From contig NC_009379.1 in NCBI RefSeq assembly GCF_000016345.1, positions 1,054,001 to 1,118,000 on the forward strand: a stretch of 64,000 bases of DNA. The letters run 5' to 3'. The stretch is from Polynucleobacter asymbioticus QLW-P1DMWA-1 (GTDB taxonomy: Bacteria; Pseudomonadota; Gammaproteobacteria; Burkholderiales; Burkholderiaceae). The stretch's first letter is position 1, and the number at the start of each line of letters is the position of its first letter. Position numbers and translations under genes: made by a program. Under the pieces are notes generated by a model. That model had not been told where the DNA came from, did not search any database, and worked only from the letters and a program-made list of their open reading frames with translations. Below are positions 3,138 through 64,000 of this stretch, piece by piece.

Positions 3138-3153
3138 AAGTTCGGAGACGTTC

Positions 3154-43490: not shown

Positions 43491-43627
43491 CTTTCTGCCT
43501 CAGATCCTATTCTTAGCCCATCTATCAGTAATAGGCCTTTCTTATGACTCTTAATATACCGAAATCCTAACATTTTCAGTGTTTTAAGGGTTTTGAGGCC
43601 CCTTATTGATAATGATAAAATCTAGAA

Positions 43628-45160: not shown

Positions 45161-45220
45161 AACCACAAATCATTTATTGATTTAAAGTTTTACTTCACCC
45201 CTCAGTATCTAAAGGTTTCC

Positions 45221-46606
45221 ATGCAACTCTCCCCATCGATCTTCAAGGCTTATGACATTCGCGGCATTATTGATGAGACATTAGATCCATCGATCGCCAA
45301 ACTCATTGGTCAAGCGTTTGGTACAGAGATGCGCGAGATTAATGAAACAGAAATCGTGATCGGTCGTGATGGCCGTTTATCAGGCCCAGCTTTAATTGAA
45401 GCCTTAACTGAGGGTTTGCTTTCTACGGGCATTAATGTTATTGACCTCGGTATGGTGGCAACTCCGATGGTCTACTTTGCCGCCAACCAATTGCTTGATG
45501 GCAAAAGGCCTAAATCAGGCATCATGATTACCGGTAGCCATAACCCACCGAATTACAACGGCTTCAAAATGGTATTGGGTGGTGCCGCTATTTATGGCGA
45601 TCAAATTCAGGCACTTCGTAAACGTATTGAAGCGAGACAATTTCTCACTGGCCAAGGTATACGTAGCACTTTCGATATTTTCCCGATGTATTTGGCATAT
45701 ATCGTTGGCGATGTGAAGCTTGCTCGACCTATGAAAATTGCAGTCGATTGTGGCAATGGTGTTGGTGGTGCATTTGCTGGAAAACTTTTCAGGGCTTTAG
45801 GCTGTGAAGTACAAGAATTATTCTGCGAAGTGGATGGTAAATTTCCTAACCACCACCCTGACCCAGCCCATATTGAGAATCTACAAGATCTCATAAAAAA
45901 TCTACAGACTACTGATAATGAATTAGGCCTTGCCTTTGATGGTGATGCTGATCGACTCGGTGTTGTTACTAAAGATGGTCAAGTCATTTTCCCGGATCGT
46001 CAAATGATGTTGTTTGCGAAAGATGTTCTCACCCGTAATCCTGGTGGTCAGATCATTTATGACGTCAAGTGCACTCGTAATCTCGCTACCTACGTAAAAA
46101 AATATGGTGGTGAACCATTGATGTGGAAAACGGGTCACTCATTAGTGAAAGCCAAGCTCAAAGAAACGGGCGCCCCTCTTGCCGGTGAAATGAGCGGACA
46201 TATCTTCTTCAAAGACCGCTGGTTTGGTTTTGATGATGGTCTCTACACTGGTGCACGTTTATTGGAGATTCTGTCTAAAGAGAAAGATCCAAGCCAAACC
46301 TTAAATGAATTGCCAAATGCTATATGCACCCCTGAGCTTCAATTAGCCTGCGCTGAAGGTGAGCCATTTGCATTGCTGGATGTCATCAAAGCCAATGCCA
46401 AGTTCCCAAGCTCAGAGTCTATTAATACCATTGATGGTGTACGCGTGGAATATGCTGATGGCTTTGGTCTTGCCCGTCCTTCAAATACAACGCCAGTAGT
46501 AGTGATGCGCTTTGAGGCGGACAGCCAAGAGGCAATTAAACGTATTCAGGCGGAGTTTAAAGTCGTTCTCTTGGCTGCCAAGCCTGATGCAAAGCTGCCG
46601 TTTTAA
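45221..46606 (+). CDS. Phosphomannomutase/phosphoglucomutase
   Basis: This 461-residue alpha-D-phosphohexomutase is AlgC/ManB-like. The active serine is Ser106 in TGSHNPP, the magnesium loop is FDGDADRLG (about 240-248), the sugar-recognition loop is GEMSGHIFF and the phosphate-binding loop is in RPSNTTPV. These features match the dual PMM/PGM type used for exopolysaccharide and LPS precursors. With pgi upstream it probably routes fructose and glucose phosphates to envelope sugars. Confidence 0.92.
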   Translation: MQLSPSIFKAYDIRGIIDETLDPSIAKLIGQAFGTEMREINETEIVIGRDGRLSGPALIEALTEGLLSTGINVIDLGMVATPMVYFAANQLLDGKRPKSGIMITGSHNPPNYNGFKMVLGGAAIYGDQIQALRKRIEARQFLTGQGIRSTFDIFPMYLAYIVGDVKLARPMKIAVDCGNGVGGAFAGKLFRALGCEVQELFCEVDGKFPNHHPDPAHIENLQDLIKNLQTTDNELGLAFDGDADRLGVVTKDGQVIFPDRQMMLFAKDVLTRNPGGQIIYDVKCTRNLATYVKKYGGEPLMWKTGHSLVKAKLKETGAPLAGEMSGHIFFKDRWFGFDDGLYTGARLLEILSKEKDPSQTLNELPNAICTPELQLACAEGEPFALLDVIKANAKFPSSESINTIDGVRVEYADGFGLARPSNTTPVVVMRFEADSQEAIKRIQAEFKVVLLAAKPDAKLPF

Positions 46607-46932: not shown

Positions 46933-48705
46933 TTAATTAAAGTTATAACTTGCACTTACCCAACCCCTAGGTTGAGTGGTTGTTCCATCCGTATTAACCG
47001 CCTGTCCTGTAGAACTATAAAGTGGGTTTTGACCAACCTTCCATGCAACCATCGCATTGATACCCCACCCTTCGTAATCCCACTTCACACCAAAACCAGC
47101 CCCCATTAAAGAGTAAGTATTGTTGGCATTAGTTTGACCCTGCCAACCTGGATATAAATTTTTATATTGCTGAACTACACCACCATCAAAGAAGGTAGAC
47201 AAAGTAAACTTTTCATAAATACGATGCCTCAGTTCAACAGTGAATAATCCACCTTGAGTGCCCCCTGATTGTGCTACCGGATATGCACGAACTCCATAAG
47301 GACCGCCAAGGTAAATTTGTTCCGCCGTATTTAAATTGACTGATGCAAATTGACCAGACACACCGGCATATAAATTCGTATTACCACTTTGATCTAGTTG
47401 CTGAGTACGATTAGCCGAGAATGCTAACTTGGCAAAATTAGATGGGGTCACAACTCCATAAGCTGTGGGAGTTGTGTCCGGAATTGCGTACAGTCCATAA
47501 CCAGATTGGCTAGTCGCCTGAATATCGAGGTGCCCTAGAACCATGGTTACAGAACCAGTATTGATGGCGCCATACCCAATGTCATCAGCTAGATTTCCGG
47601 ATAGCCCCGCAGAGAGATTATTGATGTTGTAGGCACTAATAACGCTATCAGTGATGAAATTTGTATTGTTATAGCTCTTGATATCGTAGTTAACAGATCC
47701 ATTTAGGTTAGCTCCTGGGCTTCGGATCAAAGGATATGCACCACTAACACCGGTTGTCCAGGCCGAGCCTGCACCACCGTTATAGGCATAGTTACTAACA
47801 TTCTTATAATTTAGGAAGGTACCTGCAAGACCTAAACGCAAGCCATCAGGTGAGGCTGGTGCGGAAATCGCCCCCTGAATATATTGCGAGCCTTGCGACA
47901 CGATTCCATTTAAAGAAAAAGATTCGCCAATACCAATGGGGTTATTCAGATTTAAGGCGACAATACCCTGATTCGCGCCTGTTGTTCTACTGCCATAGGT
48001 ATTGGCTTCAACACGTCCTTGCACGAGATCGGGCTGAGTTAATTGGAGGCGTAAATCTGACTCACCGTCCTTATCACCAGGTTCTAATTGGCTCAGAACG
48101 ATAACGCCGGGTGTTTCATTCAAGATGGTTACAGCTCGCTCAATCGCAGGCATGCTCAATGGAGCACCAATGGGATTGGCATAAGTAATGTAGCTTGCTG
48201 CTCGTTCTTTACTGAAGCGAGTTGGTCCTTTAGGATTTTCTACGACCACTTTTCCCAACTTTGCTTCGGTAACTAATATTTTTACAATGCCATCCGCAAT
48301 CTTTTGTGGTGGCAATATTGCCTGAACCGTGTAACCCTTACTGCGATATAAATTTTGAATGGCATCACATGCTCTTTGCAGATCATCAAAGCTAACTGGC
48401 ACCCCAACCCAAGAACGAATCGCTAACTGCACTTCAGACTCAGGAAGAATATTGACACCCTCCAGTACAAATGACTTGACCGTGAAACGCACTTCCCCTT
48501 GTTTGGGAGCGCTAGGCTGAACTGGCGCAGCTTTACTAGGCTCAGGCAAAGCCAAAGGGGATGGCAATGGTAATTGCTGCTCAAGACCCTGTTGCAGCGC
48601 TCCAGCATCGACCTGTCCGAATACTTGATACGACCAAGTACATGTCACAAGCCCTAGCAAGCCAATGACTAATTTAGATTTAGATGTGGTGATTCGTAAA
48701 GTCAA
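46933..48705 (-). CDS. Two-partner secretion outer-membrane transporter (TpsB, ShlB/FhaC/HecB family)
   Basis: This is a 590-residue Omp85-superfamily protein. A signal peptide (about residues 1-30, ending VFGQ) and a Pro/Gln-rich linker are followed by POTRA domains (about 70-145 and 150-220). A 16-strand barrel begins near residue 230 and ends with YNFN, a terminal aromatic-containing strand. The LGGPYGVRAYP motif (about 473-483) is the conserved TpsB channel-loop signature, and FFDGGVV follows. The start is a TTG with no ribosome binding site seen. The usual TpsA partner is not evident: the upstream giant gene has its own barrel. Confidence 0.88.
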   Translation of the reverse strand: MTLRITTSKSKLVIGLLGLVTCTWSYQVFGQVDAGALQQGLEQQLPLPSPLALPEPSKAAPVQPSAPKQGEVRFTVKSFVLEGVNILPESEVQLAIRSWVGVPVSFDDLQRACDAIQNLYRSKGYTVQAILPPQKIADGIVKILVTEAKLGKVVVENPKGPTRFSKERAASYITYANPIGAPLSMPAIERAVTILNETPGVIVLSQLEPGDKDGESDLRLQLTQPDLVQGRVEANTYGSRTTGANQGIVALNLNNPIGIGESFSLNGIVSQGSQYIQGAISAPASPDGLRLGLAGTFLNYKNVSNYAYNGGAGSAWTTGVSGAYPLIRSPGANLNGSVNYDIKSYNNTNFITDSVISAYNINNLSAGLSGNLADDIGYGAINTGSVTMVLGHLDIQATSQSGYGLYAIPDTTPTAYGVVTPSNFAKLAFSANRTQQLDQSGNTNLYAGVSGQFASVNLNTAEQIYLGGPYGVRAYPVAQSGGTQGGLFTVELRHRIYEKFTLSTFFDGGVVQQYKNLYPGWQGQTNANNTYSLMGAGFGVKWDYEGWGINAMVAWKVGQNPLYSSTGQAVNTDGTTTQPRGWVSASYNFN

Positions 48706-48790: not shown

Positions 48791-48872
48791 TGTTAGCAGC
48801 CTATAGCCCATAAGGCGCTCAATGCTAACAGCAGGTGCATTACCGTGAACTCCATTCACCTGTCAGGTGAAT
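48791..48872 (-). other. Two inverted repeats between the giant autotransporter gene and TpsB
   Basis: The 166-base gap holds a dyad TGTTAGCA/TGCTAACA (48791-48798 and 48823-48830) with an inner GCC/GGC. It also holds a near-perfect 19-base palindrome at 48854-48872 (ATTCACCTG-T-CAGGTGAAT) touching the stop codon of the giant gene. Neither is followed by a proper T run on the minus strand, so they are not convincing terminators. They may be mRNA 3' end stabilisers or a protein-binding dyad. Confidence 0.4.
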
Positions 48873-51800
48873 TAAAAGTTAATTTTTACCCGAACAGAAC
48901 CCGTCTGATTGACAAAACCCGAGGTTTTGAATTGATTATCGTAACGAACTGAGTATTCAATTCCATTCTTATCGGTACCCACAAAACCAACTCCAGCGTG
49001 ATAAAGCACTGGGGATGTTTGTAAACCGTTTGTCGCAAAAGTAGGTCCACCACCAGTAAAGACTGAGTTAATTTGGGTTTGCTTATTCATGGAATCATAA
49101 CCAGCACCACCATTAATAACAATTTTCGATTTTGGTGTTAACGCCTGATCCAATCTAAGATCTGCCGTAGTCATCAGCTCTTGATATGTTTGCTGATTAA
49201 CATTTAAATTCAAGCCAGAAGATGCCCCGGTTTCTGTATACCCATTAGCTTGCATTCCAAAATAATCAACCCGTACGGAAGGTATAAATGTTGTGCCCTC
49301 AGCAATCGGCATCTGCTTGCTAATGCCTGTTCCAGCATGCGCAGAATAGCTGTAATAATTCGATGAAGCTGCAGCACTTTGGACAAAGTTAATCGTACGA
49401 GTTCCCTTATTTTGATTGATACCCATATCCGCTTGGTAATTAACATGCAAGGTTGGGTCAAGCCTGTAGGTACCGTATAAGCCCATTTGATAATTATTTA
49501 CCACACCACTATTAGGCGCAGCAGCAGAATTGCTTGTGATGTTGGTGTTATCAATTGCCAACATAGCACCAACCCTAGAGTTTACGGAGTACTCTTTATC
49601 GACACCCAAAACGACACCTCCAGAGCTGGCTTTATATCCGGAAACTCCTGCTTGGTCATTTTGATTTGACCAACTACCGTATGGTTTCATCCAGAACTGG
49701 TCAGTTCCAATAAATTCTTCACCTCTAGCCAAGCCAAGCCCTGAATCCATACGGGATTGAACAATTTGATTTAATGCACGTTGAGTACTATAAGTCGCCT
49801 GACTAAACGCACCCGCCATCAGTGGCACTGTTTGACTAATCGCATTTGATTGCGCTTTACCACTGAGAGAATTCAACGCATTAATAGCTGGCGCCATAGT
49901 ACCTGGCGTGCCATTAGCGATAACCGTTAATGCAGTTGCAGCACCAACCGCAGATGGGTTGTTGTTAGCCAAAACGTTAGGAACATAATTAATCGTGTTG
50001 ATAGTCTGCGCTCCAACCGATAGATCTAAAGCGGTTGGATCAGTAGCATCTTGTAACACGGTGTAGGCATAAGAACTAGTGCCAGAAACATAAGTACCCG
50101 AATAAGAATTAAATCCAGATATTCCACCAGCTGCCTTGAAAATTAAGCCATATGTTTGATTTGCAGCAACTGTAGATCCTGGGTTGATGCCAAAGCTATA
50201 AGCGCCACCTGTAAACACGGCATTCCCAGTTGCAAAAAGCTTGCCATAGGCAGAGGTATTGGTAATTCCCACGCTATATTTACCTGACTGAGCATAGTTA
50301 CCAGTAATGGTTGGAGTATTGCCTGCCGCAACAATGAGGTTACCGGCGTTGGTCAGGGTACCTGTACCAGTATTAACGTTTACGTTGTTGTTTAAGGTTA
50401 AGGCGCCGGTGTTACTAATATTGACTGCGCCTACTGCAATGTCTCCGCCACTACTAAAGGTGCCTAATACATTGACGGCACTTGAAGATGAGCCAGTGAT
50501 GCTGCCGGCTACTACGGCATTAGAACCAGACAGGTTTAAGGTATTGATACCTATATTGGCGGCGCCCAATAAGGTGCCGCTGTTATCAACGGTAAAGGCA
50601 TTAGCGCTATTGAGTAAGTTAACGGAGTACGTATTACCAGCAATGGTGCCAGTGTTGTTGATGGTGCCTAGGATGGTGGAGTTGGTGGAGACACCGATAC
50701 CATCTATAGAGCCACTTATCAGACCGGCGTTATTGATCGAGCCGACAGCCCCGCCATTAATAATGGCAACGCCATATTGACTACCGGTAATTGTGCCAAC
50801 TTGTGAGCCACTTAAGCTTTGGTTGTTAATGGAGTCAACGTAAGAACTGCTACCAACCAAAATAGCGTTAGTTCCTGCAATTAATCCTGTGTTGGTGATA
50901 CCACCCAATAGAGTGCTGTGGTTAGCCACTACAACAGCACCAAGTGCTCCGCTTATTAATCCAGTATTAGCAATGCCGCCTGTCACAGTGCCATTTGTTA
51001 CAGAAATCGCATTACTAGCTCCAATTAATGAGCCTGTATTGATGACGCCGCCCGCAACTGTTCCGCCAGCTATTTGAACGCTAGTAACGCCCAGGATGGA
51101 GCCAGCATTGCTGATGCCGATCGTACCTGCAATCAAACCAGTGCTAGTAATACCGTTGATAATCTTGCTGCCAGCGCTCACTTGTATTGCAGTAGCGCCA
51201 AAAATAGAGCCGGTGTTAGCAATTGAGTCGACAACTGACGCATTTTTCAGGGCAACTCCGAGCAAGCCGCCAGCGATGGTGCCGCTATTAGTTACGCCGC
51301 CAACAACAGTAGAGTTTGTTGAGACCAACAAACCCGTGCGATTACCTGAGATCGTGCCTATATTGGTTATGCCGCCAATGACAGCCGAGGCCCCCATAAC
51401 CGCAATACCCGCAATACTATTCCCCTGAATCAAACCGGCGTTAGTAATGCCATTGGTTACAGTTCCGGCGGTGTTCAGATATATACCATAATTTCCACCG
51501 CTTAATGTTGCGCCAGCATTATTAACAATAGCGCCTCCAAGGGTGCTTGGATCGCCTATATAAATTGCCGCTCCAGTTACGCCTATCAAAGTTCCATTAT
51601 TTACAATCGACCCATTGATAGAGCTGTCTGAGCTGACATAAATGCCATTTGTTCTACCAACAACCAGAACGCCGGAATCTATGACTGCACCATTCTCATA
51701 GCTACTAAAGCCAGATAAAGTGCCACTGTTCGTATTCGCACTAAAGGTTTGAAGACCGGCACCTCTAGTGCTACCAACAATTAAATCAAGCTCATTATTT

Positions 51801-54800
51801 CCAACTTCAGTTACAGAGTAAGCAGTGCTCATTCCGCCTGAATAATAAGTGGATGAATAATTAGTAAACCCACTAATCACCCCACCAGTAAAGAGGATTG
51901 ACCCGTAAGTCTGGTTAGCCGTAAGGTTGGCGCCTGGGTTGATTCCAAAGCTGTAACTTAAACCTGTAAAAATAGCATCACCAGTAACAAATAGCCTGCC
52001 ATAAGTGCTGGTGTTGCTAATACCAACGCTGTAATTTCCAGATTGGCTGTAATTTCCTGTAATAGTTGGAGCTGCGCCAGTCAGAACATTCAAATGACCA
52101 GCATTACTTAGCGTGCCAACCCCGCCTATTCCGTTGTAAGCCGTAACATTGTTATTCAATGTCATAGCACCACTATTGCTGATATTAATTGCACCAACAT
52201 TCATAATGCCTGCGGTGCTAAATGTCCCAGTTACATTTACTGTACTGTTGGTGCCACCCGTAATACCGCCAATCACTACAGGATTAGCACCAATGAGGTT
52301 CAGACTATTTTGGCCCAAATACACAGAACCAAGCAAGGTGCCGCTATTCGATACCGCAAAGATATTGTGATTTACAAATGAAAGGGAGTGAGCGCTACCA
52401 GAAATTACACCGGTATTGGTAATATCGCCGAGTAAGGTAGCGTGAACTCCCGCATAAATACCAGTATTTCCGCCAATAATTGAGCCACTGTTAAATAAGC
52501 CGTTACTTAAGGTTCCATAACTAAGCAAATCTATACCGTTATTACCACCGGTAATAGTGCCGCTGTTAACTAATTGGCCTAGATTTGCGTGATTTGCAAT
52601 TGTCAGACCCTTTAGGTCGCCGCTTATTAAACCTGTATTAGTTAAGGCATTTACACGAGCACCAGATGAAATCAGAACGCCAACCTGGGCTCCGATAATG
52701 CTACCAGTCTGAGAACCATTATTTTGGTTATAGATTGAATCTATATAACCGTTATTTGTCACTAAAATTCCCGAGCTACTTGCACCAGAAATTAAACCGC
52801 TATTAATAATTCCACCAATGACGGACCCGCCAGCAATTTGAATGGCAGCTGTACCCAATATCGTACCTGCATTGGTAATGCCTACGGTTCCAGCAATTAA
52901 ACCAGCATTGGTAATGCCATTGGTAATTTGACTGCTTGCATCAATCTGAATTGCAGTAGCGCCAAGAATTGAGCCAGCATTGTTAATTGAGCCTACAGCC
53001 CCACCATTTTGAATACTGATGGCATATTGACCACCAGCTATAGTTCCAACTTGTGAACCACTTAAGCTTTGGTTGTTAATGAAATCTATATGGGAATTAC
53101 TTCCAGCTAATATTCCGATAGATGACGAACCGCTAATTAAACCAGAGTTGTTAATTCCGCCGGTGATACTACTATTACCAATCACTTGAATTGCAGTTAC
53201 GCCCGCTGTAATAGTGCCTGCATTATCTATGCCACCAGAAAGTGTAGAGAATGAGGCCACATTAATTCCAAGCCCGCTGCCGGAAATAACACCGTCATTT
53301 GTAACGCCAGCGATTTGAGATCCATAATAAGCGCTTATTCCCGTAGCTCCTCCAGTAATCACGCCAGAGTTGGAGATACCGCCCAATATGGTGGATTGGA
53401 AAGCATTAATGCCAGTAAATCCAACTCCAGAAATCTGCCCGCTATTGGAAATATTTCCAGAGATAGTCGAATTACCTGCTAATCGAATTCCATATGAATT
53501 TCCGATAACGCTTCCAGAATTCGAGATGGAGCCTACTACTGCGCCACTTTGGATAGAAATACCAATTTGACCGCCAGCAATGGCGCCTACTTGAGATCCA
53601 CTAATGCTTTGGTTGTTGATGGAATCAAGATGACTATTTGATCCTACTAAAATACCAGCAACCGTATTACCCAAAATACTTCCCGCATTGGTAATACCAC
53701 TCGTTACTACTCCACCGCTTTGGATGGCAATACCATATTGACCACCAGCGATGGTGCTACCTGCTAAGTTTTGGATGCCACCACCATAAAGACCACCTAA
53801 GGTGCCACCCAGTGTGCTGTTATTACCAATCAAGATTCCGGCAATTGATGTGCCTACTAAGGTACCGCTATTGGTAATACCACCATCAATTGAGCCACCG
53901 GAGTTAATGTAAATACCGTAGGAGTTACCACCTACGCTCACACCGGAGTTAATCAGGACACCATTGTGGTAACTAGTAAAGCCAGGCTCAATCATGCCGG
54001 CATAGGTAGAGGTATCAAAGATACGTTGACCATAGCCGGTAGTAGTGCCATAAATTAAATCCAGTTCATTACTTCCAATTTTCGCAATTTCAAATGGGTT
54101 GGTATATCCACTGAATGAATAATTTCCACTAAAGCCTGTAAAGCCGGTAATGTTTCCAGTGGTATCTAAGATCGAACCATAAGTGCCGGTAGTTACTACC
54201 GATCCTGGGGCAATGCCAAAGCTATAGCCTGAAGTAAAGCTGGCATCACCGATGATGTGCAGCTGACCATAGTTAGTTGGACTGGTAATACCGACACTGT
54301 AGTTACCTGACTGAGCATAGTTACCGGTAATGGTTGGAGTATTACCAGCAGCAACAATGAGGTTACCGGCGTTGGTCAGGGTACCCGTATTGACATTGAC
54401 GTTGTTATTTAAGGTTAAGGCGCCGGTGTTACTAATATTGACTGCGCCTACTGCAATATCTCCGCCACTACTAAAGTTACCTAATACATTGACGGCACTT
54501 GAAGATGAGCCAGTGATGTTGCCGGCTACTACGGCATTAGAACCAGACAGGTTTAAGGTATTGATACCTATATTGGCTGCGCCTATTAAGGTGCCAGAGT
54601 TATTTACCACCAATCCACTTGCTGTATTTTGCAAGTTCAATGAGTACGTATTACCAGCAATGGTGCCAGTGTTGTTGATGGTGCCTAGGATAGTGGAGTT
54701 GGAGGAGAGTCTGATGCCGGTGCCAACGCCAGAGATGGTAGCGCCAGCATTGTTCAGGATATTGCCAGCTAGGGTGCCGTAGTAGGCTACTGCGATACCA

Positions 54801-57800
54801 GCAAGTGATCCACTGATTAGGCCATCATTAATGATGCTTCCAGTAATGGTGCTGTGAGTACTTAAACCAATACCTACTTGTTGGCTACTGCTAATAGTTC
54901 CACCAGCAGCATTGATTAAGTCTCCAGACAGTACGCTGTAGTTACCAATGCCAATACCCGAAGAAATAACACCGCTAATTAATCCAGTATTAGTAATGCC
55001 GCCAACAATCGTACTATTTTTACCCAAGCCTAAGCCAGAGTAAGTGGCGCCGATGATTGAGCCTGTATTGGTGAGGCCACCCAAAACAGTGCCGTAACTA
55101 TAGATATTGAGCGCTTCATTGCCACGAATGAGTCCGCCAGCATTGTTAATACCATTGGTGACTAGGCCATTACTAATAAAGATACCTTGGTTTGCACCAA
55201 TGATGGAGCCCGTATTAAGAATGCCGCCTAGGATGGTTCCGCCATTATTTTGGATAGCAGTATTACCTAAGATTGTGCCGGCATTATTAATACCAACTGC
55301 GCCTGCAATCAGACCGGTGTTGATGATGCCGTTGGAGATAGAGCCAGCTGAAGCAATATTAATAACTGTAGAGATTCCAACTAGAGAACTTTGGATCGTG
55401 CCAGCATTGTTCAGTACGCCAACAATTCCTCCGTTTTGAATGCTGATGGCATATTGGCCACCAGAGATTGTGCCTACTTGTGACCCACTTAGGCTTTGGT
55501 TGTTAATGGAGTCTACATAGGAACTATCGCCGACAAATATAGCTGCATTAGAATTGCTGGAGATCAAGCCAGTATTAGCAATACCGCCAAGTACCGTACT
55601 ACCAGACGGATTACTCAGGCTGGGGCCAATATAGATAGCAGTTGCGCCACCATGAATTAGGCCAGAATTACTTATGCCATCAGTAATTAAGGCTGCGCCC
55701 GGAGCAAAGATTCCCAATGAACTACCGTTGATGGTCCCTGCGTTGGTGAGGCCACCAAATATAGTTCCGCCATTAAATATATCAATGCCTATGCCACTAA
55801 AATCAGAAACAATGGCACCTGTATTTAACAGGCCACCATTAATGGTGGATGCAGAACTGACCAATATTCCAGCCCAACCCCGACCATAGATTAATCCTGA
55901 GTTTGATATACCGCCCGACACTAATACGCCATCACTTAACCTAATGCCTCCAGCATCAGCTACGATAGTACCCACATTATTAATTGACCCTACAACCCCA
56001 CCACTTTGAATAGCAATACCGTATTGACCACCAGCGATGGTTCCAACTTGAGATCCACTTAAGCTTTGATTATTGATGAAATCGATGTAAGAGTTAGTAC
56101 CTACAAAGATGCCGACCTTGGTTGCGCCTGAAATCAAGCCAGAATTAGTTAAGCCCCCAGCAATAGATGAGCTACTCAGGAAGACTCCTTGTGAACGACC
56201 TTTTATTGCACCACTGTTTTGTATTCCACCTGATAAAGTAGAGTTACTCTTTAAGATAATCCCTGTACCACCACCGGATATTGTTCCGCTATTTAATACT
56301 CCGCCTGATAAAACTGAGAGGTCCCGAAGAGAAATCCCTGTATACCCAAGAATATTCCCATTATTTTTTATTCCATCAGCAATTGAAGAGTTACCAAGAT
56401 AAATTCCGGCACCAGATGTACCACCAGAGATCACCCCATCGTTTGTGATGCCGCCACCCAGAGAGCTACCATTTTGAAGAACAATAGCATCAGCAACTCC
56501 ACCACCGCTAATAGTGCCACTGTTGATAATGCCACCAGCGATAATTGAAGTGCTTGAAACTATGATGCCAGTCTTACTCCGACCACCACTGATAGAGCCG
56601 CTGTTGGTAATGCTACCTGCGATGATGGAGTGATTGACAACTGCGATACCAGCACTACCACCACTGATAGTGCCACTGTTGGTAATCCCACTCGTTACTA
56701 CTCCACCACTTTGGATGGCAATACCGTATTGACCACCAGCGATGGTTCCAACTTGAGAACCACTTAAGCTTTGGTTGTTGATAGAGTCAATGACAGAGGC
56801 ATACCCACCAACGAGGATTCCGGCATAAGTAGCGCCATTGATTAAACCGGAGTTAGTAAGGCCGCCAGCAATTTGACTCTCAAAGCCAACCTTAATTGCA
56901 GTTTGCCCACCATAAATTGTGCCGGTATTAGTAAGGCCGTCACCAATGGTAGAGAAGTCATTTAACTTCAATCCAATTTGATTCATACCTGCAATTAAGC
57001 CTGTATTGGTTATACCTCCAGCTACCTGACCATTCTCATATAACGAGATGCCATTACTTGCACCAATAATGGAGCCTGTGTTAACAACACTATTGGCAAT
57101 GAAGCTATTGTGAGTAATTGCAATTGCATCGGTATTGCCATAGATGGTGCCAGTATTGGTAAGACCGCCTAATAAAGTGGCGCCTTTTAAATAGATACCG
57201 GTACTACCAATGCCAGTAATTAATCCAGTGTTAGTAATGCCGCCAGCTACGGTGCTATAAGTGAGTGAGATACCATTACTAGCGCCAATCAATGAGCCCG
57301 TGTTCAGTAAGCCGCCCAGAATAGTTCCACTATTATTTCGGATTGCGGTATTACCCAAAATACTTCCCGCATTGGTAATACCACTCGTTACTACTCCACC
57401 ACTTTGGATGGCAATACCGTATTGACCACCAACGATGGTGCTACCTGCTAAGTTTTGGATGCCACCACCATAAAGACCACCTAAGGTGCCACCCAGTGTG
57501 CTGTTATTACCAATCAAGATTCCGGCAATTGATGTGCCTACTAAGGTACCGCTATTGGTAATACCACCATCAATTGAGCCACCGGAGTTAATGTAAATAC
57601 CGTAGGAGTTACCACCTACGCTCACACCGGAGTTAATGAGGACACCATTGTGGTAACTAGTAAAGCCAGGCTCAATCATGCCGGCATAGGTAGAGGTATC
57701 AAAGATACGTTGACCATAGCCGGTGCTCGTACCGATCAGAAGATCCAGTTCATTCCAGGCGATGTTCTCAGTAACGGAGTACTCCGTAGTCAGACCACTG

Positions 57801-60800
57801 TAATGGAAGGTATTGCTATAAGGCGTAAAGGCACTAATGGTGCCAGTAGTATCTAAGATTGCGTTGTAAGCAGTACCAGTAACGTTAGATCCTGGTGCAA
57901 TCTTAAAGGTCGCGTTGGGGGTAAAACTAGCATCACCAGTGATATGTAATTTGCCGTAAGTACCTGCAATATCGTTAATACCGACACTGTAGTTACCTGA
58001 CTGAGCATAGTTACCAGTAATGGTTGGAGTATTGCCTGCTGTAACAATGAGGTTACCGGCGTTGGTCAGGGTACCCGTATTGACATTGACGTTGTTATTT
58101 AAGGTTAAGGCGCCGGTGTTACTAATATTGACTGCGCCTACTGCAATATCTCCGCCACTACTAAAGTTACCTAATACATTGACGGCACTTGAAGATGAGC
58201 CAGTGATGTTGCCGGCTACTACGGCATTAGAACCAGACAGGTTTAAGGTATTGATACCTATATTGGCTGCGCCTATTAAGGTACCAGAGTTATTTACCGC
58301 TAATCCACTTGCTGTATTTTGCAAGTTCAATGAGTACGTATTACCAGCAATGGTGCCAGTGTTGTTGATGGTGCCTAGGATAGTGGAGTTGGAGGAGAGT
58401 CTGATGCCGGTGCCAACGCCAGAGATGGTAGCGCCAGCATTGTTCAGGATATTGCCAGCTAGGGTGCTGCCATTACCAATGATGATGCCAGTCTGTAGAT
58501 CACCAGTACCGCCAGCGATCAGGCCACTGTTGGTGATATTACCAATCATGGTGGAGGCTTCGTAAATACTAATACCAGAGCCAGCGCCGATGATCGTACT
58601 GCCGGCATTGTTCACTATATTGCCATTAATAAGCGAATGATTGTAGGCTTGGATACCGTGACCAGTACCACCTGTGCCACCTGATATCAAGCCACTATTG
58701 GTGATGTTACCCATCAAGCTGCTGTATGTACTAACTTTCACCCCATTGGTACCCCTAATCACACCGGCAATACTGTTGATTACGTCGCCTGCGATGGTAG
58801 AGTTATTAGTAACTGTAATAGCCGTATTGGCGCCAATGATGGAGCCCGCGTTATTGATGCCACCATAGAGAGTGCTATTAGTGCTAATGGAAATGGCAGA
58901 AGCGGCCATGATGGTGCCGGTGTTAGTGAGGCCGCCCATTAAGGTGCCATAGCTTCTTGCAGCAATACCAGCATTAGAGCCAGAAATTAATCCAGCATTA
59001 GTAATGCCGTCTGGAATATTGCCATTATATGAAGCAAGGATGCCGTACTCTCCACCAGAAATAGCTCCCGTTAGATCATTAATAATGCCACCGTGAATAT
59101 ACGCCCTTGATAGAGAAGCTATGCCAGCGATAGATCCTGTAATTAATCCGCTGTTCCTAATGCCTGCATTCATTACAGAATCAGTGGCTGCGAATATTCC
59201 GTATTGACCGCCTAAAATCGTGCCGCCGTTAGCATTAAAAATGACTCGATCAATGCTAGAGTTACCACCAAGCCCTAGTCCGGCTATTGATCCAGAGATC
59301 AATCCAGCATTAGTAATGCCGTTCATATGCGATGCGCCGTCTACATATACGCCATAACTATCACCAGCTAAGGTGCCCTCTGATGAGTTGGCGAGCAGAC
59401 TTAACTGATAGGAATTAGAAAGATGTAAAGCGGCATATCCTCCATAGATAAGGCCGCTATTACTAATAGAAATATCGGTACCACGGGCTGCAAATTTAAT
59501 GCCTGTAACGCCCCCTGAAATGGTGCCACCTACGCTATTAACAATATCCCCTAATAAATGGATTGGGTTGTCTAGCGTAATACCTACATTAGCTCCCGAA
59601 ATCAGCCCGCTATTAGTAATGCCATTAACAATAGTGCCACCATCACCCACATAAATGGCTGTAGCACCCAAAATTGATCCGGCATTCAATATTGATCCGA
59701 GAGTTGCATTACCTTGGACGGCAATACCGTATTGACCACCAGCGATGGTGCCTACAGTAGAACCAGTATTTTGGTTGTTGATGGCGTCAAGGCTTGAATT
59801 AGAACTTATGAGTATTCCGGAGTATGAAGTTCCTGAGATTAATCCAGAGTTAGTGATGCCACCAGCTACAGTTCCTGCACCGTAGAGAGCAATGCCTCTA
59901 GAGGTCCCAATGATATTTCCAAGATTGTTAATCCCTTGCGTTAGAACTCCGTGGTATGCCACATCAATACCATTGCCACCTTGAATTACTCCAGAAGATT
60001 GATTGACTATACCGCCCGATGCTAGCGCATTACTGCCAATATAGATTCCGCTATTTGGTGCCGATCCATTGCTAACTAGGCTTCCGCTATTGGTAATACC
60101 ATTAACAATCCTTGCATCCGCCCCACTCACTCCAATCGCAAATTGCTGAGCAATAACAGCTCCTGTATTGGTGATGCCTCCTAATAAAGAAGTATTGTGA
60201 ATGTTAATTGCTGAGATAGCATTTATTAAATTAGCATTAGTGATTCCGCCGGTGACTGTGCTTTGGTTCAGATAAATACCTGCGCTAGTGCCTAAAATGG
60301 AACCGGTATTTACTATTCCGCCTATTACAGTGCCGCCATTGATTGCAATTGCAGTTACCCCAGCAATAGTGCCTGCATTATTAATGCCTACGGTTCCAGC
60401 AATTAAACCGGTATTGGTAATGCCATTGGTGATTTGACTACTTGCATCAATCTGAATTGCAGTAGCACCCAAAATACTTCCCGCATTCAAAATGGAACCA
60501 ATTGTTCCGCCACTTTGGACAGCAATACCATATTGACCACCAGCGATAGTTCCAACTTGGGACCCGCTTAGGCTTTGGTTATTAATAGTGTCAATGTAAG
60601 CACCATCAAAGCTCAAGATGCCAGCATTAGATGACCCCTGAATATTGCCTGTATTGGTAATGCCACCAACAATAGATGAATTGTTATAAGCAATAATGCC
60701 AACTGAATTTCCAGAAATAATCCCATCATTATTAATACCGCCGACAATAGTAGAGCCAAACCCAGCATATATACCTGCGGCTTCAGACATGCCACTACCA

Positions 60801-63800
60801 GATATCAATCCGGTATTTACAATTCCATTAATAAGTTGACTACCACTGTGAAGGAAGATTCCGTTAGAGCCCAAAATACTTCCCGCATTGGTAATCCCAC
60901 TCGTTACTACCCCACCACTTTGAATAGCAATACCGTATTGACCACCAGCGATGGTTCCAACTTGAGAACCACTTAAGCTTTGGTTGTTGATAGAGTCAAT
61001 GACAGAGGCATACCCACCAACGAGGATTCCGGCATAAGTAGCGCCATTGATTAAACCGGAGTTAGTAAGGCCGCCAGCAATTTGACTCTCAAAGCCAACC
61101 TTAATTGCAGCTTGCCCACCATAAATTGTGCCGGTATTAGTAAGGCCGTCAGCAATGGTAGAGAAGTCATTTAACTTCAATCCAATTTGATTCATACCTG
61201 CAATTAAGCCTGTATTGGTTATACCTCCAGCTACCTGACCATTCTCATATAACGAGATGCCATTACTTGCACCAATAATGGAGCCTGTGTTAACAACACT
61301 ATTGGCAATGAAGCTATTGTGAGTAATTGCAATTGCATCGGTATTGCCATAGATGGTGCCAGTATTGGTAAGACCGCCTAATAAAGTGGCGCCTTTTAAA
61401 TAGATACCGGTACTACCAATGCCAGTAATTAATCCAGTGTTAGTAATGCCGCCAGCTACGGTGCTATAAGTGAGTGAGATACCATTACTAGCGCCAATCA
61501 ATGAGCCCGTGTTCAGTAAGCCGCCCAGAATAGTTCCACTATTATTTCGGATTGCGGTATTACCCACAATACTTCCCGCATTGGTAATGCCACTCGTTAC
61601 TACTCCACCACTTTGGATGGCAATGCCGTATTGACCACCAGCGATGGTGCTACCTGCTAAGTTTTGGATGCCACCACCATAAAGACCACCTAAGGTGCCA
61701 CCCAGTGTGCTGTTATTACCAATCAGGATTCCGGCATATGATGTGCCTACTAAGGTACCGCTATTGGTAATACCACCATCAATTGAGCCACCGGAGTTAA
61801 TGTAAATACCGTAGGAGTTACCACCTACGCTCACACCGGAGTTAATGAGGACACCATTGTGGTAACTAGTAAAGCCAGGCTCAATCGTGCCGGCATAGGT
61901 AGAGGTATCAAAGATACGTTGACCATAGCCGGTGCTCGTACCGATCAGAAGATCCAGTTCATTCCAGGCGATGTTCTCAGTAACGGAGTACTCCGTAGTC
62001 AGACCACTGTAATGGAAGGTATTGCTATAAGGCGTAAAGGCACTAATGGTGCCAGTAGTATCTAAGATTGCGTTGTAAGCAGTACCAGTAACGTTAGATC
62101 CTGGTGCAATCTTAAAGGTCGCGTTGGGGGTAAAGCTAGCATCACCAGTGATATGTAATTTGCCGTAAGTACCTGCAATATCGTTAATACCGACACTGTA
62201 GTTACCTGACTGAGCATAGTTACCAGTAATGGTTGGGGTGTAAGTGCTAGCAGCAACAATGAGGTTACCGGCGTTGGTCAGGGTACCTGTACCAGTATTA
62301 ACGTTTACGTTGTTGTTTAAGGTTAAGGCGCCGGTGTTACTGATGTTGACTGCGCCTACTGCAATGTCTCCGCCACTACTAAAGTTACCTAATACATTGA
62401 CGGTACTTGAAGATGAGCCAGTGATGTTGCCGGCTACTACGGCATTAGAACCAGACAGGTTTAAGGTATTGATACCTATATTGGCTGCGCCTATTAAGGT
62501 GCCGCTGTTATCAACGGTAAAGGCATTAGCGCTATTGAGTAAGTTAACGGAGTACGTATTACCAGCAATGGTGCCAGTGTTGTTGATGGTACCTAGGATG
62601 GTGGAGTTGGTGGAGACGCCGATACCGGCAAGCGAGCCATTAATCAAGCCAGCGTTATTAATCGAGCCAACAGCTCCACCATTAATAACGGCAACACCAT
62701 ATTGACCACCTGTGATGGTACCTATTTGTAAACCACTGATGCTTTGGTTATTGATGGAGTCAACGTAAGAACCGTGACCGACACCTACACCCGCAAAGTA
62801 GTTACCACTAATGAGGCCAGTGTTGGTAAGGCCTCCTACTAAAGTACCAAAGTTTGCTACCGCAATACCAGCAGTTGAGCCGCTGATGAGGCCATCGTTA
62901 ATGATGCTGCCAGTAATGGTGCTATGAGTACTCAAACCAATACCTACTTGCAAAGCGCTAGTGATTGTTCCGCCGACAGCATTGATCAGGTCACCAGATA
63001 AGGTACTGTAGTTGCCAACGCCAATACCAGAAGAAGAGTTGCCACTAATTAGGCCAGTGTTGGTAATGCCACCAAAAATCGTGCTGTTTCTGCCTAAGCC
63101 TAGGCCTGAGTAGGTGGCGCCGATGATCGCCCCAGCATTAGTGATGCCGCCTAAAACAGTGCCATAGCTATAAATGTTGAGGGCTTCGTTGCCGCTAATG
63201 AGTCCACCAGCATTATTAATACCATTGGTGACTAAGCCGTTGGCAATATAGATACCTTGATTAGTACCCATGATTGATCCGGTATTGATAATGCCACCAA
63301 GAATCGTACCGCCATTGTTGTTAATAGCGGTATTGCCTAAGATGGTTCCTGCATTATTAATACCGACTGCACCTGCAATGAGGCCAGTGTTGATGATGCC
63401 GTTGGAGATAAGGCCCGCAGAGTCCATTTGAATGGCAGTTCTGCCAATAATAGAACCGGCATTATTAATAGAGCCAATGCTTCCACCGCTTTGAACTGCA
63501 ATACCGTATTGACCACCAGCAATGGTGCCTACTTGTGAACCACTTAAGCTTTGGTTGTTGATGGAGTCGATGTAACCATTGTTAATAGCTAGAACACCAG
63601 AGGAAGATGCTCCGTTAATTAAACCCGAGTTAGAAATACCGCCAATAACAGTTGAGCTAGCATAAGCTAAAACTCCATTTGAGTTACCGATTATTAAACC
63701 ACTATTAGTAATACCCCCATAAACAGTAGAATCAATACCAACAATAATTCCGGCGATATTAGCCGATCCGATTTCTGCGATTAATCCAGAATTGCTAATA

Positions 63801-64000
63801 CCTCCAGATAGAATCGATTGATTAGTAACATTAATTCCGCCAGCAAAAACATTCGATTCTCCAGCAATAGTTCCATTATTGGTAATACCCCCCACCAAGG
63901 AGGAGTGGGAAACTAAAATACCAAAGGCTGGATTAGCAACAGCCTCTGCATAAATCAAACCGCTATTAGTAATACCTCCTGTTAACGTGCTGTGATAGAG
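48872..64000 (-). CDS. Giant repetitive autotransporter adhesin (type Va), N terminus beyond window
   Basis: The frame is open from the window edge to a stop at 48872, more than 5,040 codons; a TTG at 63958 is only an internal codon, since upstream codons continue the same repeats. The passenger consists of roughly 25-residue beta-helix repeats of the type GGITNSGLISGxxxGI followed by a variable stretch and S-T-I, on the order of 140 copies by rough estimate, with a recurring NNQSLSGSQVGTIAGG sub-module (about 12 copies). Five autochaperone-like modules interrupt the repeats. The C terminus is an autotransporter barrel ending in Phe. No Cys was noticed, typical of autotransporter passengers. 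Signal peptide and promoter are outside the window. An adhesive or cell-surface role is inferred. Confidence 0.9.
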   Translation of the reverse strand, partial: LYHSTLTGGITNSGLIYAEAVANPAFGILVSHSSLVGGITNNGTIAGESNVFAGGINVTNQSILSGGISNSGLIAEIGSANIAGIIVGIDSTVYGGITNSGLIIGNSNGVLAYASSTVIGGISNSGLINGASSSGVLAINNGYIDSINNQSLSGSQVGTIAGGQYGIAVQSGGSIGSINNAGSIIGRTAIQMDSAGLISNGIINTGLIAGAVGINNAGTILGNTAINNNGGTILGGIINTGSIMGTNQGIYIANGLVTNGINNAGGLISGNEALNIYSYGTVLGGITNAGAIIGATYSGLGLGRNSTIFGGITNTGLISGNSSSGIGVGNYSTLSGDLINAVGGTITSALQVGIGLSTHSTITGSIINDGLISGSTAGIAVANFGTLVGGLTNTGLISGNYFAGVGVGHGSYVDSINNQSISGLQIGTITGGQYGVAVINGGAVGSINNAGLINGSLAGIGVSTNSTILGTINNTGTIAGNTYSVNLLNSANAFTVDNSGTLIGAANIGINTLNLSGSNAVVAGNITGSSSSTVNVLGNFSSGGDIAVGAVNISNTGALTLNNNVNVNTGTGTLTNAGNLIVAASTYTPTITGNYAQSGNYSVGINDIAGTYGKLHITGDASFTPNATFKIAPGSNVTGTAYNAILDTTGTISAFTPYSNTFHYSGLTTEYSVTENIAWNELDLLIGTSTGYGQRIFDTSTYAGTIEPGFTSYHNGVLINSGVSVGGNSYGIYINSGGSIDGGITNSGTLVGTSYAGILIGNNSTLGGTLGGLYGGGIQNLAGSTIAGGQYGIAIQSGGVVTSGITNAGSIVGNTAIRNNSGTILGGLLNTGSLIGASNGISLTYSTVAGGITNTGLITGIGSTGIYLKGATLLGGLTNTGTIYGNTDAIAITHNSFIANSVVNTGSIIGASNGISLYENGQVAGGITNTGLIAGMNQIGLKLNDFSTIADGLTNTGTIYGGQAAIKVGFESQIAGGLTNSGLINGATYAGILVGGYASVIDSINNQSLSGSQVGTIAGGQYGIAIQSGGVVTSGITNAGSILGSNGIFLHSGSQLINGIVNTGLISGSGMSEAAGIYAGFGSTIVGGINNDGIISGNSVGIIAYNNSSIVGGITNTGNIQGSSNAGILSFDGAYIDTINNQSLSGSQVGTIAGGQYGIAVQSGGTIGSILNAGSILGATAIQIDASSQITNGITNTGLIAGTVGINNAGTIAGVTAIAINGGTVIGGIVNTGSILGTSAGIYLNQSTVTGGITNANLINAISAINIHNTSLLGGITNTGAVIAQQFAIGVSGADARIVNGITNSGSLVSNGSAPNSGIYIGSNALASGGIVNQSSGVIQGGNGIDVAYHGVLTQGINNLGNIIGTSRGIALYGAGTVAGGITNSGLISGTSYSGILISSNSSLDAINNQNTGSTVGTIAGGQYGIAVQGNATLGSILNAGSILGATAIYVGDGGTIVNGITNSGLISGANVGITLDNPIHLLGDIVNSVGGTISGGVTGIKFAARGTDISISNSGLIYGGYAALHLSNSYQLSLLANSSEGTLAGDSYGVYVDGASHMNGITNAGLISGSIAGLGLGGNSSIDRVIFNANGGTILGGQYGIFAATDSVMNAGIRNSGLITGSIAGIASLSRAYIHGGIINDLTGAISGGEYGILASYNGNIPDGITNAGLISGSNAGIAARSYGTLMGGLTNTGTIMAASAISISTNSTLYGGINNAGSIIGANTAITVTNNSTIAGDVINSIAGVIRGTNGVKVSTYSSLMGNITNSGLISGGTGGTGHGIQAYNHSLINGNIVNNAGSTIIGAGSGISIYEASTMIGNITNSGLIAGGTGDLQTGIIIGNGSTLAGNILNNAGATISGVGTGIRLSSNSTILGTINNTGTIAGNTYSLNLQNTASGLAVNNSGTLIGAANIGINTLNLSGSNAVVAGNITGSSSSAVNVLGNFSSGGDIAVGAVNISNTGALTLNNNVNVNTGTLTNAGNLIVTAGNTPTITGNYAQSGNYSVGINDIAGTYGKLHITGDASFTPNATFKIAPGSNVTGTAYNAILDTTGTISAFTPYSNTFHYSGLTTEYSVTENIAWNELDLLIGTSTGYGQRIFDTSTYAGMIEPGFTSYHNGVLINSGVSVGGNSYGIYINSGGSIDGGITNSGTLVGTSIAGILIGNNSTLGGTLGGLYGGGIQNLAGSTIVGGQYGIAIQSGGVVTSGITNAGSILGNTAIRNNSGTILGGLLNTGSLIGASNGISLTYSTVAGGITNTGLITGIGSTGIYLKGATLLGGLTNTGTIYGNTDAIAITHNSFIANSVVNTGSIIGASNGISLYENGQVAGGITNTGLIAGMNQIGLKLNDFSTIGDGLTNTGTIYGGQTAIKVGFESQIAGGLTNSGLINGATYAGILVGGYASVIDSINNQSLSGSQVGTIAGGQYGIAIQSGGVVTSGITNSGTISGGSAGIAVVNHSIIAGSITNSGSISGGRSKTGIIVSSTSIIAGGIINSGTISGGGVADAIVLQNGSSLGGGITNDGVISGGTSGAGIYLGNSSIADGIKNNGNILGYTGISLRDLSVLSGGVLNSGTISGGGTGIILKSNSTLSGGIQNSGAIKGRSQGVFLSSSSIAGGLTNSGLISGATKVGIFVGTNSYIDFINNQSLSGSQVGTIAGGQYGIAIQSGGVVGSINNVGTIVADAGGIRLSDGVLVSGGISNSGLIYGRGWAGILVSSASTINGGLLNTGAIVSDFSGIGIDIFNGGTIFGGLTNAGTINGSSLGIFAPGAALITDGISNSGLIHGGATAIYIGPSLSNPSGSTVLGGIANTGLISSNSNAAIFVGDSSYVDSINNQSLSGSQVGTISGGQYAISIQNGGIVGVLNNAGTIQSSLVGISTVINIASAGSISNGIINTGLIAGAVGINNAGTILGNTAIQNNGGTILGGILNTGSIIGANQGIFISNGLVTNGINNAGGLIRGNEALNIYSYGTVLGGLTNTGSIIGATYSGLGLGKNSTIVGGITNTGLISGVISSGIGIGNYSVLSGDLINAAGGTISSSQQVGIGLSTHSTITGSIINDGLISGSLAGIAVAYYGTLAGNILNNAGATISGVGTGIRLSSNSTILGTINNTGTIAGNTYSLNLQNTASGLVVNNSGTLIGAANIGINTLNLSGSNAVVAGNITGSSSSAVNVLGNFSSGGDIAVGAVNISNTGALTLNNNVNVNTGTLTNAGNLIVAAGNTPTITGNYAQSGNYSVGITSPTNYGQLHIIGDASFTSGYSFGIAPGSVVTTGTYGSILDTTGNITGFTGFSGNYSFSGYTNPFEIAKIGSNELDLIYGTTTGYGQRIFDTSTYAGMIEPGFTSYHNGVLINSGVSVGGNSYGIYINSGGSIDGGITNSGTLVGTSIAGILIGNNSTLGGTLGGLYGGGIQNLAGSTIAGGQYGIAIQSGGVVTSGITNAGSILGNTVAGILVGSNSHLDSINNQSISGSQVGAIAGGQIGISIQSGAVVGSISNSGSVIGNSYGIRLAGNSTISGNISNSGQISGVGFTGINAFQSTILGGISNSGVITGGATGISAYYGSQIAGVTNDGVISGSGLGINVASFSTLSGGIDNAGTITAGVTAIQVIGNSSITGGINNSGLISGSSSIGILAGSNSHIDFINNQSLSGSQVGTIAGGQYAISIQNGGAVGSINNAGSILGATAIQIDASSQITNGITNAGLIAGTVGITNAGTILGTAAIQIAGGSVIGGIINSGLISGASSSGILVTNNGYIDSIYNQNNGSQTGSIIGAQVGVLISSGARVNALTNTGLISGDLKGLTIANHANLGQLVNSGTITGGNNGIDLLSYGTLSNGLFNSGSIIGGNTGIYAGVHATLLGDITNTGVISGSAHSLSFVNHNIFAVSNSGTLLGSVYLGQNSLNLIGANPVVIGGITGGTNSTVNVTGTFSTAGIMNVGAINISNSGAMTLNNNVTAYNGIGGVGTLSNAGHLNVLTGAAPTITGNYSQSGNYSVGISNTSTYGRLFVTGDAIFTGLSYSFGINPGANLTANQTYGSILFTGGVISGFTNYSSTYYSGGMSTAYSVTEVGNNELDLIVGSTRGAGLQTFSANTNSGTLSGFSSYENGAVIDSGVLVVGRTNGIYVSSDSSINGSIVNNGTLIGVTGAAIYIGDPSTLGGAIVNNAGATLSGGNYGIYLNTAGTVTNGITNAGLIQGNSIAGIAVMGASAVIGGITNIGTISGNRTGLLVSTNSTVVGGVTNSGTIAGGLLGVALKNASVVDSIANTGSIFGATAIQVSAGSKIINGITSTGLIAGTIGISNAGSILGVTSVQIAGGTVAGGVINTGSLIGASNAISVTNGTVTGGIANTGLISGALGAVVVANHSTLLGGITNTGLIAGTNAILVGSSSYVDSINNQSLSGSQVGTITGSQYGVAIINGGAVGSINNAGLISGSIDGIGVSTNSTILGTINNTGTIAGNTYSVNLLNSANAFTVDNSGTLLGAANIGINTLNLSGSNAVVAGSITGSSSSAVNVLGTFSSGGDIAVGAVNISNTGALTLNNNVNVNTGTGTLTNAGNLIVAAGNTPTITGNYAQSGKYSVGITNTSAYGKLFATGNAVFTGGAYSFGINPGSTVAANQTYGLIFKAAGGISGFNSYSGTYVSGTSSYAYTVLQDATDPTALDLSVGAQTINTINYVPNVLANNNPSAVGAATALTVIANGTPGTMAPAINALNSLSGKAQSNAISQTVPLMAGAFSQATYSTQRALNQIVQSRMDSGLGLARGEEFIGTDQFWMKPYGSWSNQNDQAGVSGYKASSGGVVLGVDKEYSVNSRVGAMLAIDNTNITSNSAAAPNSGVVNNYQMGLYGTYRLDPTLHVNYQADMGINQNKGTRTINFVQSAAASSNYYSYSAHAGTGISKQMPIAEGTTFIPSVRVDYFGMQANGYTETGASSGLNLNVNQQTYQELMTTADLRLDQALTPKSKIVINGGAGYDSMNKQTQINSVFTGGGPTFATNGLQTSPVLYHAGVGFVGTDKNGIEYSVRYDNQFKTSGFVNQTGSVRVKINF
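48875..49740 (-). other. Autotransporter beta-barrel domain of the giant protein
   Basis: The last roughly 285 residues begin near FIGTDQFWMKPYGSW and show alternating amphipathic strands: GGVVLGVDKEYSVNSRVG, YQMGLYGTYRL, HVNYQADMGINQNKGTRTINF and VEYSVRYDN-like segments. They end GSVRVKINF with terminal Phe. This is the PF03797-type translocator. A roughly 75-residue linker with helical character (SQATYSTQRALNQIVQSRMD) precedes it, as in other type Va proteins. Confidence 0.85.
50030..50710 (-). repeat. Autochaperone-like module 5 (closest to barrel)
   Basis: This copy of the recurrent module runs from NNTGTIAGNTYS through LNLSGSNAVVAGSITG and VNVNTGTGTLTNAGN to GNAVFTGGAYSFGINPG, then leads directly into the linker and barrel. 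This is the position where a single autochaperone domain is normally found. Four related copies lie upstream. Confidence 0.6.
51700..52410 (-). repeat. Autochaperone-like module 4 (divergent copy)
   Basis: This copy shares the architecture of the others (NAVV-like VIGGITGGTNSTVNVTG, then NNVTAYNGIGGVGTLSNAG and GNYSQSGNYSVGIS) but is clearly diverged in sequence. It ends in the altered boundary SANTNSGTLSGFSSYENGAV instead of the IFDTSTYAG boundary of modules 1-3. It looks like an older duplicate. Confidence 0.6.
53676..54720 (-). repeat. Autochaperone-like module 3 with following repeats (mosaic copy)
   Basis: The outer parts (about 53676-54052 and 54290-54720) are nearly identical to 57360-57736 and 57980-58405. 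The middle (about 54053-54290) is different, encoding a YGQLHIIGDASFTSGYSF variant instead of YGKLHITGDASFTPNATF. The spacing to the second copy changes from 3,684 to 3,690 bases across this middle, which shows a swapped segment. Confidence 0.75.
56680..58390 (-). repeat. Long direct repeat, copy 2 (autochaperone-like module 2 plus following beta-helix repeats)
   Basis: This block of about 1.7 kb matches 60889-62608 almost base for base. The offset is constant at 4,209 bases (exactly 1,403 codons) over most of its length; checked anchor points include g56681/g60890, 56741/60950 and 57652/61861. Small in-frame differences appear near 58.0-58.1 kb. It encodes module 2 and about ten beta-helix repeats. 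Confidence 0.85.
60889..62608 (-). repeat. Long direct repeat, copy 1 (autochaperone-like module 1 plus following beta-helix repeats)
   Basis: This is the partner of 56680-58390 at 4,209 bases distance. Differences by eye are a few single bases, plus in-frame codon insertions near 62.24-62.31 kb (STYTPTITG versus GNTPTITG; NTGTGTL versus NTGTL). It encodes the first autochaperone-like module seen in the window. Such long identical blocks are prone to recombination and to assembly collapse. Confidence 0.85.
62820..63420 (-). repeat. Older direct repeat, copy 1 (pairs with 54780-55350)
   Basis: The protein encoded here (GINNAGTILGNTAI through IINDGLISGSTAGIAVANFG) has a colinear second copy at about 54.78-55.35 kb with the same order of repeats but more substitutions (for example GILNTGSIIGANQGIFIS versus GIINTGSIMGTNQGIYIA). 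The divergence suggests an earlier duplication than the 4,209-base pair. Confidence 0.7.

Follow-up and report, generated by a model that had tools for sequence, protein, structure and literature searches.

A surface protein encoded by the freshwater bacterium Polynucleobacter asymbioticus QLW-P1DMWA-1 bears on the open question of how passengers thousands of residues long can pass through the outer membrane and yet fold. A 64,000-nucleotide stretch of the genome (the window; NC_009379.1, positions 1,054,001 to 1,118,000) carries on its minus strand part of a gene for a giant autotransporter. The usual account places one folding start beside the barrel. The giant protein is a natural experiment on that account, with seven homologues of the juxta-barrel region lying far from the barrel, and it raises the questions of whether place or fold makes an autochaperone work and of whether a chain can begin to fold anew part-way along. 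The reading favoured here, at a probability of roughly 0.6, is that passenger-plus-cap units stand in tandem ahead of one barrel, forming a chain of eight in which folding would restart at each module. The arrangement also points to a simple means whereby bacteria might make longer surface fibres.

By comparison with known systems, the protein is probably a single intact type Va autotransporter that is exported to the cell surface. In the open reading frame analysis, the frame stays open up to the window edge, which truncates the gene; the more than 5,000 residues credited to it by an earlier first-pass annotation of the window stand as a lower bound set by that edge. Extended into the upstream genome, the frame runs for 10,432 codons without a stop, and from an ATG that lies beyond the window, at genome position C1:1134161, it encodes an intact 10,429-residue protein. 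The source genome is one contig of 2,159,490 bases. A 24-base ITS signature reported for P. asymbioticus (PMC5018217) is present in it, and the GC content of the window, about 45%, compares with 44.8% listed there for type strain QLW-P1DMWA-1. An assembly or frameshift artefact was set aside, the frame being stop-free in a single-contig genome. Pfam finds an ESPR export signal (PF13018, E 5.6e-16) at the N-terminus, and the C-terminal PF03797 barrel is the sole one found in the genome. The third mark of type Va, a beta-helical passenger, is predicted for the last 875 residues and for one inner stretch of 481 residues. A type Vb (two-partner secretion, TPS) exoprotein was considered and rejected, as the TPS domain PF05860 is absent from the Pfam matches of the first 440 residues. 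Promoter-like sites upstream of the gene show no excess (two found against 3.2 expected from shuffles).

48872..64000, minus strand: the part of the giant autotransporter gene that lies in the window (residues 5388-10429 plus stop)
48938..49696, minus strand: autotransporter beta-barrel PF03797 (E 3.5e-39 in the genome search, E 5.8e-38 in the protein search)

Ahead of the barrel, eight copies of the anchor ISN[ST]GA[LM]TLNN (residues 549, 3110, 4375, 5940, 7346, 8576, 9327 and 9915) each mark one module. The window carries the last five (ISNTGALTLNN, TLTNAGNL and NYAQSGNY), as the first-pass annotation had reported; the upstream sequence, which it had proposed to consult, encodes the first three and brings the count to eight. 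Its estimate of one module about every 2-4 kb also agrees with the spacing in the window, 588 to 1,406 residues (1.8-4.2 kb). Because the modules are unevenly spaced along the chain, they are not strictly required at set intervals. Identity to the first module is 51-72% for the other seven in the module alignment. Module 8 ends 77 residues before PF03797 and is the only copy near the place expected of an autochaperone, some 100 residues from the barrel; for modules 1-7 the distance to the barrel is about 670 to 9,480 residues.

The relationship among these modules was assessed with a juxta-barrel profile that makes no use of the giant protein's own copies; it was built from 117 short relatives by taking, in each, the segment that begins 250 and ends 75 residues ahead of the barrel. 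From 133 relatives fetched (13 giants plus the best 120 of 391 protein matches), the 13 giants were excluded together with three fragments, P0015 (92% identical to the giant protein), P0025 and P0087, the last two carrying the name P. asymbioticus. The profile matches the giant protein at eight places only, at independent E-values (iE) of 2.4e-16 to 2.2e-24; the matches to modules 1-3 cover residues 514-679, 3075-3260 and 4340-4520. At iE <= 1 it finds nothing in reversed or shuffled sequences and nothing in the giant protein's repeat blocks, and a 17-sequence version run on the whole genome gives eight matches, all inside the giant frame. With such values from an independent profile and nothing in the reversed or shuffled sequences, the eight copies are not a product of chance. 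Because a profile built from short relatives alone matches all eight with clean controls, the inner modules are, on sequence comparison, homologous to the barrel-proximal region, the position of an autochaperone.

61880..62449, minus strand: autochaperone-like module 4, residues 5905-6094 (juxta-barrel profile iE 5.3e-21)
57671..58231, minus strand: autochaperone-like module 5, residues 7311-7497 (juxta-barrel profile iE 2.1e-22; structure model)
53987..54541, minus strand: autochaperone-like module 6, residues 8541-8725 (juxta-barrel profile iE 2.2e-24)
51695..52288, minus strand: autochaperone-like module 7, the most divergent copy, residues 9292-9489 (iE 2.8e-21; synonymous divergence, dS, saturated against all others)
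49928..50524, minus strand: autochaperone-like module 8, adjoining the barrel, residues 9880-10078 (iE 2.4e-24; structure model; pertactin alignment extends into the module)

On the favoured reading, the passenger would consist of eight units, each a repeat block of 390 to 2,395 residues (presumed beta-helix) with a terminal module. Classical passengers cross the membrane C-terminus first, and their C-terminal rungs form a stable core proposed as the nucleus for the remaining folding (PMC5895577, accessible part of the text). Most likely the giant chain follows this pathway and leaves its single C-terminal barrel from its C-terminus; each module would then emerge ahead of its N-terminal block, fold into a stable cap and provide the first rungs on which that block could stack. 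Since eight autochaperone-position regions stand in series, folding is inferred to restart at each on emergence, eight times in all, and the product would be a series of rods, each with its cap, connected through short linkers. Staged folding of the helix is plausible by analogy, and action as autochaperones in folding and secretion is a candidate role for the modules. A fuller version, to which we give about even odds, holds that complete passengers (start-cap, beta-helix and autochaperone) are concatenated behind one barrel, that internal autochaperones restart vectorial folding, and that recombination of units adds or removes rods and sets fibre length.

Autocorrelation along the passenger peaks at 25 residues, in agreement with the 25-residue repeats noted at first pass. 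Blocks 1-8 measure 468, 2,395, 1,079, 1,384, 1,216, 1,043, 566 and 390 residues, and each would make up one rod. With about 25 residues and a rise of 0.48 nm per rung, the surface fibre would be very roughly 170 nm long.

62450..64000, minus strand: part of repeat block 4 in the window (whole block residues 4521-5904); repeats of about 25 residues, presumed beta-helix
58232..61879, minus strand: repeat block 5, residues 6095-7310; presumed beta-helix, last part modelled so
54542..57670, minus strand: repeat block 6, residues 7498-8540; presumed beta-helix, first part modelled so
52289..53986, minus strand: repeat block 7, residues 8726-9291; presumed beta-helix
50525..51694, minus strand: repeat block 8, residues 9490-9879; beta-helix in the model from residue 9555 onward
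49742..49984, minus strand: alpha-helical linker (about residues 10060-10140) that joins the last module to the barrel; the model has helices at its residues 506-586

Fold, cap and linker are predicted for two stretches only. The predicted model that includes module 8 compares well with pertactin, and the alignment runs into the module; the Foldseek list for this C-terminal model is filled by barrels, and pertactin emerged at a second look. The inner-module model (481 residues around module 5) predicts a beta-helix, a cap, a low-confidence linker and then a fresh beta-helix, and Foldseek returns no significant match for it. Structure prediction, which the first-pass annotation had recommended for each module, therefore speaks well for the last module and more weakly for the inner one in the two stretches modelled. 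The juxta-barrel profile matches, which cover some helix as well as the module, span 166-199 residues; autochaperones measure about 110 (109-135 in solved cases).

Several relatives share the terminal barrel and the multiple juxta-barrel-type modules. These are the database proteins P0002, P0003, P0004, P0005 and P0006 (3, 9, 6, 4 and 4 modules; P0006 carries the name Fluviibacter phosphoraccumulans) and the product of a 5,541-residue frame with seven modules in G034, a genome of the same genus. A passenger-start profile was built from 16 short relatives (no reversed-sequence match below iE 0.1) and run on these six proteins and the giant protein. At iE up to 0.1, with matches required to begin within the profile's first 25 positions, 24 were obtained; 23 begin between -60 and +30 of an inner-module end (2.4 expected), and the remaining one is the true start of P0005. 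A passenger-start-like segment thus follows 23 of the 27 inner modules in the six relatives. Cysteines are similarly placed: 50 of 54 beyond residue 30 lie within start or post-module windows (7-14% of the length), and in 79 short relatives 114 of 145 beyond residue 45 fall at or before residue 130. Because start-like segments and cysteines follow the inner modules, each unit in the relatives resembles a whole passenger. The reverse test, which ran a profile of post-module segments on short relatives, was not clean: 35 of 120 matched, with 15 matches up to residue 110 and 27 beyond it. Three strong matches among those listed (67-83 bits) comprise one passenger start and two sites just after inner modules.

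The giant protein differs from these relatives on this point. Its passenger has no cysteine, and the reverse-test profile has no match in it; a start segment, if there is one, would have changed beyond recognition. The tandem passenger-plus-autochaperone units envisaged in the first-pass annotation are therefore apparent in the start-like segments of the relatives, with none recognisable in the giant protein itself.

Other results weigh against the favoured reading. The passenger-start profile finds no segment after any of the giant protein's inner modules (0/7). PF18883 (AC_1) matches none of the eight modules at E <= 1 and nothing in the genome at E <= 10, and hhalign of the modules against K-12 Ag43, YcgV and YpjA gives no sequence link. 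When compared with known autochaperones, the inner-module model scores weakly above other beta-helices. PF18883 also has no match in three single-copy relatives checked. In a Pfam control, K-12 Ag43 matches PF18883 at 573-690, and YcgV and YpjA match PF03212 (Pertactin) instead. No named autochaperone family emerges from Pfam and NCBIfam scans of all eight modules, PDB sequences give no match to the module alignment up to E 10, and the A2 profile matches PDB sequences in the barrel only. The autochaperone-like interpretation made at first pass thus keeps the homology of all eight modules to the juxta-barrel region and loses the link to named families. A split in which the last module alone matched an autochaperone profile, named there as contrary evidence, is not seen: PF18883 matches none of the modules and the juxta-barrel profile all of them.

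Two further candidates were discarded. PF25441 reaches 11-15 bits in six modules, under its cut-off of 27. An iterative profile seeded with the giant protein's own modules drifted, its final round having no match in that protein and 15-22 in each of five Nitrospirillum giants; it was kept for a rough tally in short relatives only, and module counts come from the juxta-barrel profile.

The modules might instead be caps and hinges only, closing beta-solenoids and joining rods flexibly with no nucleation, so that fibre shape is what is selected. The linker predicted at low confidence after the inner module, with the helix restarting beyond it, would fit such a role, as would the start-like segments after most inner modules in the relatives, which are expected for closed rods. 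This account is nonetheless unlikely, as the C-terminal region of known autotransporters is regarded as both stabilising the helix and initiating its folding (PMC5767081 and PMC5895577, accessible parts). Because the same region is credited with both, capping and nucleation are hard to separate.

Copy number seems to have grown through recombination within the gene. Ranked by length, the first nine of its DNA repeats (1.06-1.98 kb, 83-96% identity) all cover modules, the tenth (0.87 kb, 97%) covers none, and 28% of the coding sequence lies within repeats of at least 300 bp and at least 90% identity. In a tree of 58 segments, the eight copies form one group with two short relatives (92/96). These patterns would also suit modules that are passengers of recombination, copied inward from the barrel-proximal region by repeat-driven unequal crossing-over and of no benefit. 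Such an origin without function is quite improbable given the signs of constraint: the ratio of nonsynonymous to synonymous divergence (dN/dS) is below 1 in every computable module pair (21/28), and module 7, an old copy with silent sites saturated in all seven of its pairs, is yet aligned throughout. Multi-copy proteins also occur in several lineages, and the 10,432-codon frame is intact. In the same tree, six inner copies of P0003 group together (100/99) and corresponding inner copies of P0005 and P0006 pair (100/100 and 100/95), which may reflect repeated amplification within proteins with some copies retained across species.

Among the eight copies, the pooled ratio of nonsynonymous to synonymous differences (pN/pS) is 0.43 overall; by region it is 0.38 ahead of the core, 0.19 within it and 0.57 in the C-terminal part, the pairs not being independent. 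Another view takes the modules for binding domains whose repetition increases avidity for a surface or partner and whose likeness to autochaperones is owed to descent only. It would suit the repeated modules and their more variable C-terminal part, yet is very improbable, given that the conserved part is common to single-copy barrel-proximal segments and that no binding-domain family exceeds its cut-off in Pfam and NCBIfam scans of the modules.

Two motifs, both defined after inspection of the sequences, were counted across the modules. V.DNS.L..F occurs in 24/27 inner and 1/6 last modules of the six relatives, and elsewhere in 72/117 short relatives, 1/68 helix windows and 0/8 giant copies. 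The motif around [ST]I[ST]GNY.Q occurs in 12/27 inner and 5/6 last modules, 55/117 short relatives, 0/68 helix windows and all eight giant copies. Because V.DNS.L..F is so unevenly divided, inner and barrel-proximal copies of P0002-P0006 and G034 seem to be under different demands.

With the single-autochaperone type Va proteins pertactin, IcsA, Ag43 and UpaB, the giant protein shares the export signal, the predicted beta-helical passenger, the position of the module and a PF03797-type barrel. It differs from them in its eight module copies, its length and its lack of a PF18883 match. Module 8 is like AC_1 (PF18883; PMC5767081) in where it lies and in the beta structure predicted for it at the beta-helix C-terminus; unlike AC_1, the modules have no sequence match to that family and seven of eight lie far from the barrel. 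The accessible part of PMC5767081 makes no statement of many AC_1 copies in one protein. In the giant gene region (GGR), a replacement genomic island of P. asymbioticus, a 'giant gene' reaching 42 kb is cited by a report whose accessible part says nothing on its protein domains (PMC5644125); the gene studied here is very probably the same one. By title or abstract, no report of repeated autochaperones or of this architecture appears among the matches listed from the open-access literature. Giant genes and single autochaperones are known, and the serial arrangement appears to be new.

The module alignment matches 3 of 101 genomes of the genus, own genome included. The juxta-barrel profile matches 32 of 300 genomes of the order and 16 of 369 of the class, own genome included in each; the genomes were sampled from larger groups and the best candidates per genome scored, so the counts are lower bounds. 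Within the order, three or more modules in one frame occur only in the own genome and G034, and a 1,198-residue frame of G196 contains two; within the class, frames with more than one are confined to the own genome. P0007, a sixth barrel-bearing giant listed close to P0002-P0006, has one module. A genome-collection scan with profile A1 gives one weak planctomycete contig (the own genome possibly lies outside that collection), and the module search has no match in plasmids. Weaker module-like matches occur in P0009-P0014, giants of 3,675-6,635 residues (five named Nitrospirillum, P0012 Sphingomonas), and one weak match each in long frames of other genomes of the order, at G258:C1:1534294 (14,002 residues), G154:C69:450 (10,617) and G154:C17:118910 (10,049).

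Several neighbouring genes accompany the giant gene. A TpsB-like transporter (POTRA_2, ShlB; 46933-48705, minus strand) begins 166 bp after it on the same strand and is the genome's only POTRA_2 match over the cut-off; no TpsB gene was seen at the G034 locus. The genome's single match to the TPS domain PF05860, at C1:1203271, is about 70-100 kb away. Two open stretches that adjoin each other (L003:16373-19000 and L004:1-2667; together about 1,764 residues) lie upstream on the giant gene's strand; scanned apart, each contains TPR repeats and one sulfotransferase domain, and an FkbM-type methyltransferase lies nearby at L004:4042-4836. The multi-module autotransporter of G034 is preceded by an APS kinase, glycosyltransferases and a TPR protein that has two sulfotransferase domains. 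These neighbours in both genomes give hints, from gene content, of a sulfated or glycosylated surface protein. Genes for phosphoglucomutase and phosphoglucose isomerase lie beside the giant gene (42354-46606) and its G034 counterpart (L022:1341-5518), in both genomes adjoined by 378-residue genes. Because these genes are shared, the two autotransporter genes seem to occupy the same chromosomal slot.
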